This document shows, piece after piece, positions 27,066 through 36,669 of a stretch of DNA of 37,261 nucleotides. The stretch is from Candidatus Methylomirabilota bacterium (GTDB lineage Bacteria > Methylomirabilota > Methylomirabilia > Rokubacteriales > CSP1-6), in contig DASYVT010000059.1 in the NCBI GenBank assembly GCA_035936835.1, forward strand, positions 1-37,261, in the 5' to 3' direction. The translations under genes and the position numbers were made by a program. Every line of letters begins with the position of its first letter. Position 1 is the first letter of the stretch. The notes beneath the pieces were generated by a model that saw only the letters and a list, made by a program, of their open reading frames with translations, made no database searches and was not told the DNA's origin.

Positions 27066-27250
27066 CTCGCGCGCTAACGAATCCGTCCCGGGAGCAGCAC
27101 CACCGGGCGACGGCAAGTGGGACCATCCATCCTCCTGACTCTCCAAAATCCGTCGGGGATGTGACGACAAGCGTCATACAGAAGCGTGGCCGTAGCCTTG
27201 AGTGCTCCACAAGTAGCTGATTTTGTCGCGTGTCCATCATCCGGCAACGA
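27066..27250. other. Intergenic DNA with a short inverted repeat
   Basis: This stretch carries no gene. The only structure I see is TGACG-ACAAG-CGTCA at 27162-27176, 75-89 bp upstream of the -24 box of the next promoter. The position would suit an activator site, but it does not match the inverted repeat shared by the other two sigma-54 promoters. Confidence 0.3.
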
Positions 27251-27267
27251 CGGTACGTCGCTTGCAG
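27251..27267 (+). promoter_or_regulatory. Sigma-54 promoter P1, upstream of the PilZ-receiver gene
   Basis: CGGTACGTCGCTTGCAG: -24 GG (27252-27253), exactly ten bases, then -12 GC (27264-27265) inside TTGCA. This is the obligate sigma-54 spacing. The first base is C rather than the usual T. The start of transcription should be near 27277, 15 bases before the ATG at 27292. Confidence 0.6.
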
Positions 27268-27291
27268 CAGATTCACAGCCGGGGGACTATC

Positions 27292-28044
27292 ATGCCCGTC
27301 AAATTGCGGCGGCCGGAGTCGCGTCAACGCCCACGGACCAAGGTCAACTGGCCGGTGGTCGTGGAGCTGGACGATCGGGTGCTTCACGGCGAGGCGATTG
27401 ACGTGAGTCAACTCGCCGTCAAGGTGCGCCTCGGGGAGCGGCTGGAAGACGCTTCGCTTGTGACGCTGCATCTCAACCCGCCCCAGGGATGCCCCGTCGA
27501 CGCCCGAGCGATCGTATGGCGAACGGATGACGACGGTCCAGTCTTCCTCTTCCTCAAGAAGACGCCCGCCGTCCTTCTCGCAGGCAATGACAAGCACTCG
27601 CCGGCGCCGCGTGTTCTCACGATCCTGGTTGTCGACGATGATCCCAGCGTAGGCACTTTGGCGCGGGACATTCTCGGGTCCGCGGAATATCTCGTCCTCT
27701 TCACTCAGGATCCGGTCGAAGCGATCCAGCTGGCCAAGCAACGGCCAGGTGACATTGATCTCCTGCTCGTGGACGAGGTCATGCCATTGATGGACGGTCG
27801 AGAGCTCGCTCGACGTGTGCTCGACCTTCGCCCCAAGGTGAAGGTCTTGCTCATGTCGGGATTCGAGATGTCCAGTCTCCGGGACACGGGATGGCCGGTC
27901 ATCGCGAAGCCCTTCGGCATCACGGAGCTCATCGAGAAGATCGAGGAATGCACCACCGCAAAGAGACGATCATCGGTATTCGCGGCTCCGACGCGATCCG
28001 CTCGACGGCCGACGGACCGGACAACCCGCTCGGACACCCCTTGA
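27292..28044 (+). CDS. PilZ domain-receiver domain protein
   Basis: A 250-residue protein. Residues 1-105 resemble a PilZ domain: RQRPR matches RxxxR, and DVSQLAV stands where (D/N)xSxxG is expected, with Ala in place of Gly, so cyclic-di-GMP binding may be weak. Residues about 108-228 are a receiver with VVDDDPS, phospho-acceptor Asp in LLVDEVMP, Ser in LMSG, and Lys in AKPF. The Arg/Ser/Thr-rich tail of about 25 residues looks disordered. GGGGGA before the ATG is the ribosome site; a longer open frame upstream lacks conservation. It sits behind sigma-54 promoter P1 and is followed by the GspE-like ATPase after 16 bp. No kinase is adjacent. Confidence 0.85.
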   Translation: MPVKLRRPESRQRPRTKVNWPVVVELDDRVLHGEAIDVSQLAVKVRLGERLEDASLVTLHLNPPQGCPVDARAIVWRTDDDGPVFLFLKKTPAVLLAGNDKHSPAPRVLTILVVDDDPSVGTLARDILGSAEYLVLFTQDPVEAIQLAKQRPGDIDLLLVDEVMPLMDGRELARRVLDLRPKVKVLLMSGFEMSSLRDTGWPVIAKPFGITELIEKIEECTTAKRRSSVFAAPTRSARRPTDRTTRSDTP

Positions 28045-28060
28045 CGTCCCCACTCTCGGC

Positions 28061-29878
28061 ATGGCCTTCGCAGACGTAGGGCCGAGGACCGCGTGGAGCC
28101 CCAAGCGGGCGCCTGAAGCCGCGCTCGGGGCTCCGACCGAGCGTTGCCGGTTGGGCGAGATTCTTCTCGCCAACCAGGCGATCAACGAGCAGCAGCTCGA
28201 GGATGCCCTGGCCCAACAGGGGAGCCTGAACCTTCCCCTCGGCGCGGTACTGGTCAAGCTCAACTACGTCACGGACGACACCATGCGGCAGGCGCTGAGC
28301 AAGCAGCTCAACGTGCCCTTTATCGACCTCGAGAACGTGACGATCGATCGCCGGCTTGCCCGCGTGATCAACCGGAGCTACGCGCGGCGCCATTCGGTGC
28401 TGCCGATCGCCCAAGTCGGCCGGACGCTGACCGTCGCCATGGACGATCCGACGGACGGAGCCGTGATCGATGAGCTGATGCGGCTCACGAGCTTCGGCAT
28501 CACCGTCGTCACATCCTCGAGCCGGGCGATCCAGCGGGCGTTCCGTCGCCTCTATGAAGAGGCGCCGGAAGCGCCCGGGACACTTGACGCCCAGCTGATT
28601 ACGCCGATGGACCCTCCTTCCGACGTGGGCCAGGGTTCGTCGGCCATCGGCGACGAGCAGGCGGCCCGGCGCGCGGATGAGCTCTTTCGGCAGATCCTCT
28701 TTCGCGCGCTCGAAAGCCGCTGCAGTGACATCCATCTGGAGACGTTGCCGTTGGGGCTGCACGTGCGTTACCGGGTCGACGGTGTCCTGCGTAAGGCGCA
28801 CTTTGGGACGCTGCAGGACAATCTCGATCAGAACATGCGCGAGATCACGTCGCGAATCAGGATTCTCTCCAAGCTCGACATCACCGAGCGGCGTCGCCCG
28901 CAAGACGGCAGCTTCCGGGTGTCGGTCATCCGCGGCGCGAGCAAGGTCACGATCGACCTGCGCGTCTCGGTCATCCCGAGCTACTCGGGCGAGAGCGTCG
29001 TCATCCGGATTCTGGATCGAGCGCAGGCGCCGCGCTCCATTGCCGCGCTCGATCTGTCGCCCGTCGTCTTATCCCGTCTCGAAGGGCTGCTCCAGCGCAC
29101 CACCGGCATCTTCCTGGTCACCGGGCCCACCGGGTCCGGCAAATCGACGACACTCTACGCCTGTTTGATGACGCTTCACCGCCCGGAGATCCGCATCCTC
29201 ACCGCGGAGGACCCGGTGGAGTACGTCTACGACGAACTGAGCCAATCGCAAGTCAACGACGAGATCGGCAACACGTTCGCTGGGTATCTCCGGGCGTTTC
29301 TCCGGCATGACCCGGAAATCATCATGGTTGGCGAGATTCGCGACCAGGAAACCGCGGAGATGGCCTTCCGCGCCGCCCAGACCGGGCACCTCCTCCTCAG
29401 CACGCTGCACACCAACAGCGCGATTGCCGCGCTCCCGCGTCTGCTCGATCTCAAGATCGAGTCTTCGCTCATCGGCTCGTCGCTCATCGGAGTCATGTCG
29501 CAGCGACTCGTTCGCCGGATCTGCCCATCCTGCCGGCAAGAATACGTGCCATCGCCTGAAGTGCTCAACGTGTTCTTCGAGACCGTGTCGGCCCACGTGA
29601 AGCTCTTCCGAGGGGTGGGGTGCGCCGACTGCGGCTTCAGCGGCTACAAAGGCCGGATGATGGTCGCCGATCTCTGGATGCCCGACGAGCAAGACGCGGG
29701 GCTCATCACCAGGCAGGCACACTTCGACGAAATATGTGCGAGCGCACAGCGCACTACGTCCAGCATGGCTCAGGATGCCCACGAGCGGCTGGTGGCGGGC
29801 ACCACGACCGCCGAGGAACTGCTACGCGTGCTGCCGTACGGCGCCATCGTCGAGCATCGCCGACGATTTTCTCGCTGA
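28061..29878 (+). CDS. GspE/PilB-like secretion ATPase with MshEN cyclic-di-GMP module
   Basis: A 605-residue hexameric-type ATPase of type II secretion/type IV pilus systems. The N-terminus has the MshEN pattern: 24 residues starting RLGEILL (30-53), a 5-residue spacer and 24 more starting PLGAVLV (59-82), each ending LxxQ or LSKQ, which is the known cyclic-di-GMP-binding layout, although the central Gly of each motif is replaced. Next: Walker A GPTGSGKST (355-363), Asp box TAEDPVEYV, Walker B IIMVGEIRD (420-428), His box GHLLLSTLH, and a zinc site C488-C491/C521-C524. No pilin, GspF/PilC, secretin or other pilus gene is in the window, so it is an orphan here. It probably shares the P1 transcript. 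Confidence 0.92.
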   Translation: MAFADVGPRTAWSPKRAPEAALGAPTERCRLGEILLANQAINEQQLEDALAQQGSLNLPLGAVLVKLNYVTDDTMRQALSKQLNVPFIDLENVTIDRRLARVINRSYARRHSVLPIAQVGRTLTVAMDDPTDGAVIDELMRLTSFGITVVTSSSRAIQRAFRRLYEEAPEAPGTLDAQLITPMDPPSDVGQGSSAIGDEQAARRADELFRQILFRALESRCSDIHLETLPLGLHVRYRVDGVLRKAHFGTLQDNLDQNMREITSRIRILSKLDITERRRPQDGSFRVSVIRGASKVTIDLRVSVIPSYSGESVVIRILDRAQAPRSIAALDLSPVVLSRLEGLLQRTTGIFLVTGPTGSGKSTTLYACLMTLHRPEIRILTAEDPVEYVYDELSQSQVNDEIGNTFAGYLRAFLRHDPEIIMVGEIRDQETAEMAFRAAQTGHLLLSTLHTNSAIAALPRLLDLKIESSLIGSSLIGVMSQRLVRRICPSCRQEYVPSPEVLNVFFETVSAHVKLFRGVGCADCGFSGYKGRMMVADLWMPDEQDAGLITRQAHFDEICASAQRTTSSMAQDAHERLVAGTTTAEELLRVLPYGAIVEHRRRFSR

Positions 29879-30788: not shown

Positions 30789-32135
<1,347 letters not shown>

Positions 32136-32149
32136 GCCTGCGCTGGGCA

Positions 32150-32197
32150 TTTTCTGACCGGTGGACGCAAACCCGGCCGTCGGCACCGGTCAGAAAA
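32150..32197. promoter_or_regulatory. Perfect 14-bp inverted repeat: putative activator site for P2
   Basis: TTTTCTGACCGGTG (32150-32163) and CACCGGTCAGAAAA (32184-32197) are exact complements 20 bases apart, with an inner GACG/CGTC pair. The right half-site ACCGGTCAGAAA ends 82 bp before the -24 element of P2. That is the usual distance for NtrC-type enhancer sites. The T-run precedes and the A-run follows the stem, which is wrong for an intrinsic terminator on either strand. Confidence 0.6.
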
Positions 32198-32277
32198 CAG
32201 CCACGCGCGGCCTGAGGTCCCGCCGCAGCGGGTATAAAAACTTTTGTTCACAGGCACTTATCCCGGATCATCGAGAT

Positions 32278-32294
32278 TGGTACTGGGCTTGCTC
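32278..32294 (+). promoter_or_regulatory. Sigma-54 promoter P2, upstream of the HD-GYP operon
   Basis: TGGTACTGGGCTTGCTC, preceded by T: -24 GG (32279-32280), ten bases, then -12 GC (32291-32292) in TTGCT. This is a near-consensus sigma-54 promoter. The predicted start is near 32303, about 64 bases before the GTG of the receiver-HD-GYP gene. Confidence 0.7.
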
Positions 32295-32366
32295 ATTAGC
32301 AGCCCGGCTGGCGCCCGACCCCGCACCCAGGCATAAGGGAGTTCCGATGAAATTGGAGGCCACGAA

Positions 32367-33932
32367 GTGAGCGCGCACGCCGTGAGCGTGGAAAAGGAGC
32401 CCTCGGTGGAATCTCTGCATGTCCTCGTGGTGGATGACAACGCATCACTGCTCCGCTTCCTCGTTTCCGCCTTCACGGCCAATGGCTGCGACGTGGCGCA
32501 GGCCTCCGACGCCGAGCAGGCGCTCGAGCTCATCGCGGCGACGAGCTTCGATCTCGTCGTCTCCGACATCAAGATGCCGGGGCTGACCGGGCTCGACGTC
32601 CTTCGCGCCGTGAAGGGCGCGCAGCCCAGCACGCCGGTGGTGCTCATCACGGGCGCGCCCTCGGTCACGTCGGCGGTGTTCGGACTTCGTCACGGCGCGT
32701 ACGACTACCTCGCGAAGCCGTTCTCGATCAAGGAGATCCAGGACCTGCTGGCGCGCATCCGCGACGACCGCAAGAAGTGGAACGGGCAGGTTCCCCTTCC
32801 CGCCGGCCTCGCGGAGGAGCTGTCGCGACGCCAGTCGGGCGTGGAGACGCTCTTCCACATCGGCGGGCTCGCGCTGCAGGGGTTGGAGCCGGCCGCTTTC
32901 GTCGACAAGGTGCTCGAGCACACGGTGCGAAGCCTTCGCTGCGACGCCGCCCTCCTGCTCATGCGCGACGAGGAGGGACAGTTCACGTCGAGCCGCCACG
33001 GCGAGCCTGCGCTCGTGAACTTCGTGCTTGCCGCCCTGCAGAAGTCCTTCGAGCAGGTGGTGAAGACCGGGGCCCGCGCGGTGGTGACGATCACCCAGAC
33101 GGGGCAGCCCGTCGACGCCATCGCCACCGCCATCCCGGGCGTGGGCCGCTCCGTGGGCCTGCTGTGCCTGGCGCGGGAGGCGAAGAGCGGCGGCTTCCTT
33201 CCCGACGAGCGGGAGATGCTCCTCGGCTACGCGCAGACGACGGCGGTCGCGCTGCAGAAGCTGATCCTGCGCGACAACATCGAGCGCAACCTCGTCGACA
33301 CCATCACCGCCTTCGTCAACGCCATCGAGTCGAAGGACCCCTACCTGAAGGGGCATTCCGCGCGCGTGGCGCTGTACGCGGGAGAGCTCGCGGTCACCAT
33401 GGGGCTGCCAGCGGAGACGGTGGACGTCGTGCGGCGCGGCGCCATGCTGCACGACCTCGGCAAGCTCGCCATCATGGACACCATTCTGCGGAAGCCGGGG
33501 CCGCTCACGGAGGAGGAGTTCACGCTCATCAAGGCCCATCCCGTGGCGGGGGCCAAGATCCTCGAGCCGCTGCGCTTCCTCGCGCGCGAGGTGTGCGCCG
33601 TGCGCTATCACCACGAGCGCTTCAACGGCTCCGGCTATCCGGACGGCCTTGCCGGTGAGGACATTCCGCTCGTGGCGCGCATCACGACGGTCGCCGACGT
33701 CTTCGACGCCATCACCTCCAACCGGGCCTATCGGACGGCGATGACGGTGGAGGAGGCGCGCGAGGAGATCGCGCGCGGGCGCAACAGCCACTTCGATCCG
33801 CGCATCGCCGACGCCTTCGCGCGCATTCCGGTGGAGCGCCTCGTGGAGTTCAACCGCCACTACGAGAGCCTCGTCAGCCCGGCCATGCCCATCGATCTCG
33901 CCGCCGCCGCGGCGCTGGTGAGGGCGCAATGA
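32367..33932 (+). CDS. Receiver-GAF-HD-GYP protein, predicted cyclic-di-GMP phosphodiesterase
   Basis: A 521-residue cytoplasmic protein. Receiver (18-135): Asp23-Asp24, phospho-acceptor Asp67, Lys117. A GAF-like region (about 160-300) ends in a helix leading to the HD-GYP domain (305-500). HD-GYP residues seen: HSARV with His330, HDLGK (362-366), His391 in HPVAG, YHHERFNGSGYPDG with His415-His416 and GYP at 423-425, then DVFDAITSNRAYR. The family degrades cyclic-di-GMP to pGpG or GMP, and all catalytic residues are present. GTG start with GGAGG seven bases upstream. It follows sigma-54 promoter P2 and overlaps the next receiver gene (ATGA). Confidence 0.94.
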   Translation: MSAHAVSVEKEPSVESLHVLVVDDNASLLRFLVSAFTANGCDVAQASDAEQALELIAATSFDLVVSDIKMPGLTGLDVLRAVKGAQPSTPVVLITGAPSVTSAVFGLRHGAYDYLAKPFSIKEIQDLLARIRDDRKKWNGQVPLPAGLAEELSRRQSGVETLFHIGGLALQGLEPAAFVDKVLEHTVRSLRCDAALLLMRDEEGQFTSSRHGEPALVNFVLAALQKSFEQVVKTGARAVVTITQTGQPVDAIATAIPGVGRSVGLLCLAREAKSGGFLPDEREMLLGYAQTTAVALQKLILRDNIERNLVDTITAFVNAIESKDPYLKGHSARVALYAGELAVTMGLPAETVDVVRRGAMLHDLGKLAIMDTILRKPGPLTEEEFTLIKAHPVAGAKILEPLRFLAREVCAVRYHHERFNGSGYPDGLAGEDIPLVARITTVADVFDAITSNRAYRTAMTVEEAREEIARGRNSHFDPRIADAFARIPVERLVEFNRHYESLVSPAMPIDLAAAAALVRAQ

Positions 33933-34306
33933 GCCAGCCACGCACCCGAATCCTGATCGTCGACGACGCCGGCTCGGTGGTGGTGCTGTGCGTGAACGTG
34001 CTGCAGGCGCTCGGCTACGCGGTGAAGGGCGCCAATCGCGGTGAGGCCGCGATAGAGATGCTCCGCAAGGAGAGCTTCGATCTCATGGTGCTGGACTACA
34101 AGATGCCCGGCATGTCGGGATTCGAGGTCTTCGAGCAGGCCCGCCCGCTGCACCCGAACATGGCCGTCGTGCTCGTCACCGGACACGGCACACCGGACAT
34201 TGTGAACGAGGCCAACCGCCTCGGCTTCAACGCGATTCTCCTCAAGCCCTTCACGTCGGACGAGCTGCGGGCGACCGTTGAGAAAGTCCTCGCCGACCGG
34301 GCGTAG
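33929..34306 (+). CDS. Single-domain response regulator
   Basis: A 125-residue receiver: VDDAGS with Asp12-Asp13, phospho-acceptor Asp56 (VLDYKMPGMSG), Thr in LVTGHG and Lys106 in LKPF. There is no output domain. The ATG overlaps the stop of the HD-GYP gene, so the two are made together. It may act as a phosphate sink or phosphorelay step for the receivers of this island (PilZ-receiver, NtrC type, HD-GYP). The kinase must be encoded elsewhere. Confidence 0.92.
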   Translation: MSQPRTRILIVDDAGSVVVLCVNVLQALGYAVKGANRGEAAIEMLRKESFDLMVLDYKMPGMSGFEVFEQARPLHPNMAVVLVTGHGTPDIVNEANRLGFNAILLKPFTSDELRATVEKVLADRA

Positions 34307-34309
34307 CCG

Positions 34310-35095
34310 GTGGCGGCTTCTGCGGTGACGTCGGTGCTGGGCAGCCTGAAGTGGGGCGTCGACCGCATGCTGGCCGTGGGCTACGGTGTCGTCTACGACT
34401 ACATCTTCGAGCACTTCGACCCCTACCGGCGGCTGCAGCGCGAAGTGCTCGCCGCGGTGGAGGCGGAGGCGGGCGCCGAGCGCGCGGCTGTGCGCATCCT
34501 CGACATCGGCTGCGGGCCGGGCAACTTCTCGCTCATGCTGGCCGAGGCCGGCTTCACCGTGGTCGGCCTGGACGCGTACGACCCTCTGATCAGCCTCGCA
34601 CAGGAGAAACGCCGGACGCAGCGGCTGTCGAACCTGGCCTTCAAGCACGGCGATCTCGTGAAGGACAGTCCGTTCCGCTCCGAGCACTTCGACCAAGTCA
34701 TCAACGTCCACTTCCTGTACGCGCACCCCGACCCGATATCGGTGCTGCGGGCGGCGTACCGTGTCCTCAAGCCCGGCGGCCACGCCGTCTTCGTCAACCT
34801 CACCCGCCGCGTGCCCATGTGGGCGACGATCCGCGAGTTGTCGGCGCGCGAAGGCATCGTCCCCGTGCTCAGGAGCCTCGTGTGGGTGCTGCCGAACACG
34901 ATCTTCGAGACGGTGCGGCGGCGGAGCGGGCCCCATTACTGGGACGAGGAACGCATGGCCCGCCATCTGCGGGAGGCAGGCTTCGAGCTCCTCACGCTGC
35001 GCCGCACGTTTTTCGATGGCGCCAGCCTTCTGGCCTCCGTTCGCAAGCCGCAGACCGCCGCAGGGGCCTCCGCCCAGCCGGAGCCGGTGCCATGA
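34310..35095 (+). CDS. Class I SAM-dependent methyltransferase (UbiE/Methyltransf_11-like)
   Basis: A 261-residue methyltransferase starting at GTG three bases after the preceding stop. Motif I ILDIGCGPGNFSLML is at about 63-77, then VVGLDAYDP, HGDLVKDSPF and the post-motif VLKPGGHAVFVNLTRR. The C-terminal part, with tryptophan and arginine-rich stretches (WVLPNTIFETVRRRSG, HYWDEERMARHLREAGF), resembles small-molecule or quinone-type methyltransferases. Its substrate is unknown. As the third gene behind sigma-54 promoter P2, it may modify something made or sensed by the island. Confidence 0.87.
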   Translation: MAASAVTSVLGSLKWGVDRMLAVGYGVVYDYIFEHFDPYRRLQREVLAAVEAEAGAERAAVRILDIGCGPGNFSLMLAEAGFTVVGLDAYDPLISLAQEKRRTQRLSNLAFKHGDLVKDSPFRSEHFDQVINVHFLYAHPDPISVLRAAYRVLKPGGHAVFVNLTRRVPMWATIRELSAREGIVPVLRSLVWVLPNTIFETVRRRSGPHYWDEERMARHLREAGFELLTLRRTFFDGASLLASVRKPQTAAGASAQPEPVP

Positions 35096-35127
35096 GCTCG
35101 CGCGCCAGCCTCGTGGCCCCTGGTCAG

Positions 35128-35172
35128 TTTCTCGCCGAAAGCCGTGGACGAAGTGGTGCGACCGATCAGGAA
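35128..35172. promoter_or_regulatory. Imperfect inverted repeat: putative activator site for P3
   Basis: TTTCTCGCCG (35128-35137) matches the left half of the P2 site at 8 of 10 bases, and ACCGATCAGGAA (35161-35172) matches the right half at 10 of 12. The right half ends 82 bp before the -24 element of P3, the same distance as at P2; the gap between halves differs by one base. Confidence 0.5.
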
Positions 35173-35253
35173 TCACCCATGACGCAGGCGGCCAGAGCGC
35201 AGCTCATAGAAAGTGGATCAGTAGAATCAATAACTTATATCAATTCATCGGTC

Positions 35254-35270
35254 TGGTACCTCTCTTGCAA
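35254..35270 (+). promoter_or_regulatory. Sigma-54 promoter P3, upstream of the exported protein gene
   Basis: TGGTACCTCTCTTGCAA: -24 GG (35255-35256), ten bases, then -12 GC (35267-35268) in TTGCA. The predicted start is near 35280, leaving a leader of about 120 bases. The rest of the 300-bp gap before the next gene holds no other supported feature. Confidence 0.65.
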
Positions 35271-35398: not shown

Positions 35399-36145
35399 AT
35401 GACAATGCAGAGCAAGGCTCGATCGATTTTGCGGAAGGTAGGTTTCATGTTCGGGATTGCGCTCGCGGCGCTGCCGCTCGTGCTTGCCCCCGCAGTCGCG
35501 CAGGCGCAGAGGGGATTCCAGACGTTCGACGCCCATGGCCCATTCGTGATCAGCCTGGGCAAGGACATTCACGCCGCCGGCAACAGCGGCCGATTCGTGG
35601 TGCCCGTGCGCCACGTGTACGGACTGCTCGTTGGCTCGCCCACCAGCACCAACTGGCTACCGTTCGTACCCTTTGTGATCGAGTTCGCTACGAACGTGCC
35701 GATTGCGACGCAGTCCGGTAACGTGCATGGCACACTCTCGATCTGCGAGGCGGCGGTCCCGACATTACTACCGCCGCTGTTCTGGTGCGTCGAAGACACG
35801 AGTATTAACTTCAGCGTTCCTTCGGGTCTGGATAACCCTGTGTTCCAGCCGGGCGCGGTCACGCGACAGGCCCACGTAGCTCTCCAGACGCAAATCGGGG
35901 TGACGCCGGTGTTGTGCAGTGCTCTGAACGACCCCGATGTCCGTTGCACCGCTCCCGACGGGTTCGCGATTGGGCTTCTCGTCACCGGATCGTTCACCTT
36001 TACTGGTGGGACGGCGCAGGGCCACGGGGACGTCAACGGCTACCTCGTGCTTCAACTGGATAGCGCCGGTCACATCATCGGCATCGCGATGTCGAACGGG
36101 GGCCCCGCGAGCAATGTCAACTTCACAGGTGTGTGGAAACCCTAG
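35399..36145 (+). CDS. Exported protein of unknown function, sigma-54 controlled
   Basis: A 248-residue exported protein. The N-terminus has basic residues, a hydrophobic segment (GIALAALPLVLAPAV) and a probable cleavage after AQA near residue 36. Two ATG codons (35399 and 35405) could start it; GGAG suits the second best. The mature part looks beta-rich, has two Cys pairs (CEAAVPTLLPPLFWC; LCSALNDPDVRC) that could form disulfides, and repeats of Thr/Gly-rich strands such as GSFTFTGGTAQGHGDVNGYL. I do not recognise the family. A broken paralogue of its C-terminus lies at 36463-36648. It is preceded by sigma-54 promoter P3, which suggests it is the secreted output of the signalling island. Confidence 0.75.
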   Translation: MTMQSKARSILRKVGFMFGIALAALPLVLAPAVAQAQRGFQTFDAHGPFVISLGKDIHAAGNSGRFVVPVRHVYGLLVGSPTSTNWLPFVPFVIEFATNVPIATQSGNVHGTLSICEAAVPTLLPPLFWCVEDTSINFSVPSGLDNPVFQPGAVTRQAHVALQTQIGVTPVLCSALNDPDVRCTAPDGFAIGLLVTGSFTFTGGTAQGHGDVNGYLVLQLDSAGHIIGIAMSNGGPASNVNFTGVWKP

Positions 36146-36263: not shown

Positions 36264-36463
36264 ATGGTCGCGACGGTCGTACGCAGGACAAAGATCACGC
36301 ACGTGAAGCCGATCACGCGAGAGCCCGAGTCAGACGAGGGCCGGGCGACGGCCTCGCAGGGGGCCATCGTCTTCCGGAACAAGTACATCTTCCTCCGGAC
36401 GCTGGTCCCGAGCGACCTCGCGTACCTCTCGGAGTGGGCCAACGATCCCCACTTAAAAGGAGA
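36264..36463 (+). pseudogene. N-terminal fragment of a GNAT-type acetyltransferase
   Basis: The frame from ATG 36264 contains GAIVFRNKYIFLRTL, then VPSDLAYLSEWANDPH, which parallels GIVISRGHRVYLRTLTVRDL and LLTEWVDDPF of the intact gene at 37019. The match stops just after NDPH, where the DNA changes to a fragment of the exported protein's paralogue in another reading frame. About 65 codons survive out of a normal gene of 170 or more, so this is a truncated duplicate. Confidence 0.7.
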
Positions 36464-36648
36464 TCGACCTCGAGACGTCGCCGGGCGTCTTCTTCTTCCC
36501 CGGGCTGCTCATCAACGGCACGGTGACGTTCACGGATGGCGCCCAGGGCCACGGCACGGTCGACGCCTGGGTCATTCCCATCATCGACCACAACTCGGGC
36601 CATATCGTTGGCGTGTTCGCCGGTGCTCTCCTCCTGCAGGGCAACTAG
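36463..36648 (+). pseudogene. C-terminal fragment of a second copy of the exported protein
   Basis: The frame ending at TAG 36648 reads LLINGTVTFTDGAQGHGTV, then DHNSGHIVGVFAGALLLQGN. This parallels LLVTGSFTFTGGTAQGHGDV and DSAGHIIGIAMSNGG of the exported protein at 35399. It has no start codon or signal peptide and follows the acetyltransferase fragment in a different frame, so only the last quarter of the gene remains. Confidence 0.7.
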
Positions 36649-36669
36649 GTAAGAATCAGGAGACCCGTC

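Follow-up and report, generated by a model that had tools for sequence, protein, structure and literature searches.

The window analysed here is a contig of 37,261 nucleotides (DASYVT010000059.1, positions 1 to 37,261, forward strand) from the Candidatus Methylomirabilota assembly GCA_035936835.1, a soil bacterium of the Rokubacteriales. It carries a gene for an NtrC-type response regulator, starting at 30789, and two sigma-54 promoters, P2 and P3, which have the same direction and lie about 3 kb apart. Upstream of each promoter are two short near-palindromic operators. We think it highly probable that both promoters belong to one sigma-54-dependent regulon and that the operators receive dimers of the regulator encoded at 30789. 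The features involved are as follows, with operator scores and ranks taken from a motif that was built without the window; IHF stands for integration host factor.

30789 to 32135, plus strand: NtrC-type response regulator with a receiver, an AAA+ sigma-54 activator domain and a Fis-type helix-turn-helix, predicted to bind the four operators
32143 to 32161, plus strand: P2 distal operator, the 19-mer CTGGGCATTTTCTGACCGG, core 32145-32159, held-out score 10.5, rank 9 of 37,243
32150-32197, no strand assigned: P2 inverted repeat of the sequence-only reading, whose perfect 13-bp arms (32150-32162 and 32185-32197) are the inner halves of the two operators
32186 to 32204, plus strand: P2 proximal operator, CCGGTCAGAAAACAGCCAC, core 32188-32202, held-out score 12.8, rank 3 of 37,243
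32233 to 32260, plus strand: A/T-rich stretch of P2 with a degenerate IHF-like site, TTCACAGGCACTTA, at 32247-32260, where relatives have a better match
32278 to 32293, plus strand: P2 sigma-54 promoter, TGGTACTGGGCTTGCT, of strict consensus
35120 to 35138, plus strand: P3 distal operator, CTGGTCAGTTTCTCGCCGA, core 35122-35136, held-out score 17.4, rank 1 of 37,243
35162 to 35180, plus strand: P3 proximal operator, CCGATCAGGAATCACCCAT, core 35164-35178, held-out score 5.4, rank 51 of 37,243
35225 to 35237, plus strand: P3 IHF-consensus site, AATCAATAACTTA, matching WATCAR-N4-TTR without mismatch, 29 bp before the -24 element
35254 to 35269, plus strand: P3 sigma-54 promoter, TGGTACCTCTCTTGCA, of strict consensus

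The -24 element, TGGTAC, starts at 32278 in P2 and at 35254 in P3, and both promoters match TGGTAC-N5-TTGCW, with the GG of the -24 and the GC of the -12 element at the correct spacing; the -12 element is TTGCT, ending at 32293, in P2 and TTGCA, ending at 35269, in P3. Genome-wide checks, all of them pattern searches, found the strict consensus TGGYAC-N5-TTGCW 10 times in the 4.1-Mb genome versus twice for the reversed pattern, and P2 and P3 are among the 10. The genome has one gene for RpoN (sigma-54; PF04552, E 5e-62) and four of the HU/IHF family, one exceeding the NCBIfam cut-off for IHF-beta and another falling slightly short of the one for IHF-alpha.

The operator unit is a separate site of 15-19 bp, present twice per promoter, with the consensus TGGYCA-N5-TGRCCA. 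It emerged from a de novo palindromic search of the stretch between the stop codon of the NtrC-type ortholog and the downstream sigma-54 promoter in relatives, with the window excluded; the search converged on this consensus with 71 sites in 28 loci. At both P2 and P3 the core of the proximal operator begins 90 bp before the -24 element, and the paired operators are spaced by 43 bp (P2) and 42 bp (P3). Among the strict or relaxed sigma-54 sites examined in the genome, only P2 and P3 have this paired arrangement. A plain search of the genome for GGYCA-N5-TGRCC matched 48 places, a number too large to say much by itself. The operators are slightly asymmetric, the middle of the distal one tending to AGTTYCTC and that of the proximal one to AGGAATCA, with opposite orientations.

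This asymmetry accounts for how the region looked in the sequence-only reading, which had described an enhancer-like inverted repeat at the same distance from each promoter. Its half-sites are placed exactly to the base: the right ones, ACCGGTCAGAAA (32185-32196) at P2 and ACCGATCAGGAA (35161-35172) at P3, both end 82 bp before the -24 element, and the left ones, TTTCTGACCG (32151-32160) and TTTCTCGCCG (35128-35137), start at -127 and -126 relative to it, hence the single-base offset that had been reported. The sites therefore stand, but not as one 46-bp repeat, since each promoter instead has two near-palindromes of 15-19 bp. Because the distal and proximal operators are opposite in orientation, the right half of the distal site and the left half of the proximal one together give the appearance of a single inverted repeat. 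With the P2 half-sites fixed, none of about 37,000 other positions in the window carried both at the same places and at the observed similarity; the right half alone was matched at 5 positions and the left half alone at 11.

Similarity between the two promoter regions is confined to these elements. In ungapped comparison P2 and P3 are identical at 14/19 positions of the proximal site, 14/19 of the distal site (with a 1-base shift) and 11/16 of the promoter, whereas identity in the 73-bp spacer (13/73) and in the stretch between the operators (4/22) is at chance level. It is therefore the sites themselves that have been kept, and the likeness of P2 and P3 does not come from a fresh duplication.

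Comparison with relatives establishes the conservation of the operators as well as the limits of their spacing. Phylogenetic footprinting, which had been proposed as a possible refutation, was positive: 28 other loci of Rokubacteria keep the operator beside their ortholog of the NtrC-type gene, although spacing and site number vary, and 14 promoters of the P3 type keep it as well. The nearest group (group I: L001, L002, L004, L019 and, less clearly, L003) has the two operators placed as at P2: the 19-mers begin 136-137 and 93-95 bp ahead of the -24 element, compared with 135 and 92 bp in the window. In 14 other loci, none of which was used in building the motif, the same cluster ends with an exported-protein gene that has a P3-type promoter ahead of it, with a proximal site at -90 to -95. 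The combined p value for these proximal sites is 3.6e-14, which is overstated since related genomes are not independent; the opposite-strand control on the same loci gave two chance matches in about 26 loci. Conserved operators beside an NtrC-type ortholog thus support the proposal that the half-sites belong to binding sites for a shared sigma-54 activator.

A site for IHF, the consensus of which (WATCAR-N4-TTR) was taken from earlier work (PMC3897727), recurs in most P3-type relatives at -27 to -33 from the -24 element. Fisher's test on this placement gave p = 5e-8 for 14 P3-type promoters including that of the window, a value inflated by the relatedness of the genomes, and p = 0.01 for the P2-type set. 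At P2 of the window the best match has two mismatches and is not significant; five group I relatives have a match with one mismatch at -30/-31.

Two further observations concern the promoters of relatives and of the genome at large. Among L007-L020, the group II genomes share another conserved inverted element, approximately TTCCGGAA...TTGAAATTCA...TTTCCGGAA, which lies about 100-170 bp upstream of the P2-type promoter and separates the distal from the proximal operators (L013 7350-7580 is an example); pieces resembling TTTCCGGA occur in P3-type promoters of the same group. The window has no such element, which is possibly a site for another regulator. Elsewhere in the genome, a strict sigma-54 promoter at G000:C69:89480 (L055 1501) has a single operator-like site, TTGGTCATTCAGCAGCCAC, 103 bp upstream, and it is possible that this promoter is a further target or carries the site of a related activator.

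The protein encoded at 30789 has the domains of a sigma-54-activating response regulator (Pfam Response_reg 3.9e-28, Sigma54_activat 8.2e-68, HTH_8 2.5e-13, with AAA_lid too), and its loop reads GAFTDA, a variant of GAFTGA. Orthologs that are 67-80% identical (73-80% in group I) are found in many metagenome-assembled genomes of Rokubacteria, and nearly all have a sigma-54 promoter just downstream. All orthologs that have the motif share one recognition helix, RQTLRKKL, which differs in remote homologs. From the conserved linkage we infer that this protein is the binder of the operators. Its probable kinase in relatives is a histidine kinase with seven transmembrane segments and a GAF domain (7TM-GAF), encoded at the far end of the same cluster (L092 12742-14886), where in L092 and L097 it comes after the GNAT gene; in L115 a gene resembling the 7TM kinase directly follows the ntrC ortholog.

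Several points weigh against this assignment. The spacing of the operators varies among more distant relatives: a second group has its proximal operator at 84-98 bp and distal ones shifted to about 184-218 bp, and in other relatives the operators are 37, about 90-100 or about 118 bp apart. The conserved helical phase proposed in the sequence-only reading, approximately four turns (42-43 bp), thus holds for the window and its nearest relatives and fails further afield. By the motif, the proximal operator of P3 (GATCA...CACCC) scores weakly; P3-type promoters of relatives have mostly the same AATCA core at that place. No close ortholog of the kinase was found in this genome, perhaps because the contig ends at 37261, inside an acetyltransferase gene. 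Many other genera of the family have a close ortholog of the regulator, yet none was found in four other genomes of the same genus (G022-G025, compared with G000); the locus may have been lost there or acquired here, or the contig may be mis-binned. A protein search with the regulator as query gave 63 candidate places in the genome, which probably holds other NtrC-type regulators able to share the sites.

This last point is the starting place for the strongest rival, in which P2 and P3 do carry sigma-54 enhancers, but ones that serve another NtrC-type activator, with its gene elsewhere in the genome. The 63 candidate places, together with the fact that linkage is not binding, speak for it, but we consider it unlikely: the operators remain beside the ortholog of the 30789 gene in 28 other loci despite altered spacing and site number, the paired arrangement occurs only at P2 and P3 among the sigma-54 sites examined, and motif-bearing orthologs do not vary in their recognition helix.

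The inverted repeat at P2 might instead be an RNA hairpin that ends the ntrC-type gene, as a terminator or 3' stabiliser, with the likeness to P3 being incidental. The repeat does begin 15 bp past the stop codon, and the region folds at -42 kcal/mol (z = -5.3). However, the stem lacks a following U-tract, the equivalent regions of P3 and of L001 fold no better than shuffled sequences (z 0.1 and -0.1), the operators are conserved, and P3 does not lie at the end of that gene. We rejected a hairpin as the main role of the repeat and regard it as very improbable; a secondary hairpin role may exist at P2 alone. Less credible still is a recent duplication of the promoter region that left P2 and P3 alike and is silent on function. 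This part of the contig does hold tandemly duplicated, decayed gene pieces (36265-36652), but the chance-level identity outside the operators and promoters, on which we rejected a recent copying of P2 into P3, and the P3-type promoters with operators at the equivalent place in other genera argue against it. A duplication long ago, with selection acting afterwards, would fit shared control by the 30789 regulator.

If P2 and P3 do form one regulon of this regulator, then by analogy with established sigma-54 systems (PMC7057263, PMC3897727) it could work as follows. A sensor kinase, the 7TM-GAF histidine kinase in relatives, would phosphorylate the regulator, and its dimers on the distal and proximal operators would assemble an AAA+ ring. 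Bending of the DNA just ahead of the -24 element, by IHF or a similar protein bound at the site there, could let the ring touch the sigma-54 RNA polymerase by looping and open the promoter. The output of P2 would be an HD-GYP regulator, a single receiver and a methyltransferase, and that of P3 a small exported protein. In this scheme the promoters, the operators with their spacing and conservation, the IHF consensus and the genes for RpoN and IHF-like proteins are established by sequence and comparison; the binder, its phosphorylation, the looping and the output are what we infer.

The genes behind the two promoters are the following.

32347 to 32370, plus strand: frame of 7 codons (MKLEATK*); its stop codon and the GTG that starts the HD-GYP gene overlap
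32367 to 33932, plus strand: response regulator with GAF and HD-GYP domains (Pfam HD_5 1.3e-39, Response_reg 6.2e-27), the first full gene behind P2
33929 to 34306, plus strand: single-domain response regulator of the P2 operon (Pfam Response_reg 2e-26)
34310 to 35095, plus strand: S-adenosylmethionine-dependent methyltransferase of the P2 operon (Pfam Methyltransf_23 7.9e-21)
35405 to 36145, plus strand: small predicted exported protein with a signal-peptide-like N terminus, the first gene behind P3 (start at 35399 or 35405)

The GAF/HD-GYP protein is a predicted phosphodiesterase of cyclic di-GMP (c-di-GMP). Behind P2, group I relatives have a gene about 300-600 codons long (beginning MRLEVKK... 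in L019), and the 7-codon frame of the window is apparently a remnant of the start of such a gene; no homolog of the complete gene was found in this genome, in a search made without a positive control. Just upstream of the regulator, at 27223-29878, are genes for a PilZ-receiver protein and a GspE-type ATPase with MshEN. These two families are linked to c-di-GMP and pili, and here they lie near the HD-GYP gene of the regulon.

The exported protein behind P3 has no match in Pfam or NCBIfam, and hence none to a PEP-CTERM model. It stands where relatives have an exported-protein family but is not clearly homologous to that family, and a search of 57 genomes of the bacterial family for homologs of the P3 protein found only the window's own. 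The proteins of the relatives are about 240-270 residues long, have LYELTEN near the mature start and are encoded in the same cluster across the Rokubacteria (L092 10917-11717, L093 7242-7970 on the minus strand, L094 11841-12551, L096 10883-11653 and about 20 others), with two copies in some genomes. Where tested, members have no Pfam or NCBIfam match; that at L096 10883-11653, for instance, matches no NCBIfam model and therefore no PEP-CTERM anchor model. Downstream of the P3 gene, the decayed pieces at 36265-36652 include an acetyltransferase-like fragment that runs out of frame into a second copy resembling the C terminus of the P3 protein (TFTDGAQGHGTVDAWV... beside TFTGGTAQGHGDVNGYL...), which suggests tandem duplication and decay.

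The mechanism itself is a textbook one; the regulon, the operator and the exported-protein family appear to be undescribed in the literature searched, in which we found no account of sigma-54 control in Rokubacteria. An uncultured lineage, for which few such cases exist, thereby gains a concrete and testable regulon, comprising an operator, target genes and a bending site as well as a probable activator and a probable kinase, and one in which sigma-54 control is tied to a c-di-GMP enzyme and to an exported-protein family without known relatives. We hold the balance to be even on a broader proposal, namely that this two-component system is for the most part restricted to Rokubacteria, has a sigma-54 operator of its own, controls from two promoters a c-di-GMP phosphodiesterase operon and a family of small exported proteins, and is a counterpart of PrsK/PrsR built from different parts.

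Operators of enteric NtrC read TGCACY-N5-RGTGCA, and its enhancers consist of two dimer operators of approximately 17 bp that act by looping (reviewed in PMC7057263). P2 and P3 resemble this glnA type of arrangement in having two dimer operators upstream of a -24/-12 promoter, predicted to act through looping, and differ from it in the operator, TGGYCA-N5-TGRCCA. The regulator is not NtrC proper either (430.8 bits compared with a TIGR01818 cut-off of 558.6), nor is it PrsR (378.2 bits; TIGR02915 cut-off 502.6) or AtoC, the best-scoring NCBIfam model (NF008469; 465.7 bits, cut-off 714). Because these curated cut-offs are missed, it is filed under none of the three. As in sigma-54 enhancer systems generally, the dyad operators lie about 80-200 bp upstream, are repeated and are kept in relatives. 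A site for IHF between operators and promoter, which is common but not obligatory in such systems, is also present, perfect and conserved at P3 and degenerate at P2 of the window.

Two other described systems are close as well. The orp1/orp2 promoters of Desulfovibrio vulgaris are controlled by the activator DVU2106 with IHF, and their dependence on both was shown by experiment (PMC3897727). Like P2 and P3, they are two sigma-54 promoters of a local regulon whose palindromic operators belong to an enhancer-binding protein encoded nearby, with IHF sites (WATCARxxxxTTR) separating operators from promoter; unlike P2 and P3, which are codirectional, about 3 kb apart and predicted in every respect, the orp promoters are divergent. 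PrsK/PrsR regulates PEP-CTERM genes in Proteobacteria (PMC1569441). It shares with the system proposed here for Rokubacteria an NtrC-type regulator paired with a membrane histidine kinase, exported-protein genes as targets, and a conserved upstream motif (17 nt in PrsK/PrsR), sometimes repeated, followed by a sigma-54 site. However, motif 1 of PrsK/PrsR ends in TTTACA, and the exported protein behind P3 has no NCBIfam match. The P2/P3 system works like orp and PrsK/PrsR but is assigned to neither, given the missed cut-offs for PrsR, NtrC and AtoC and the different operator, and is a well-supported example of a well-known type.

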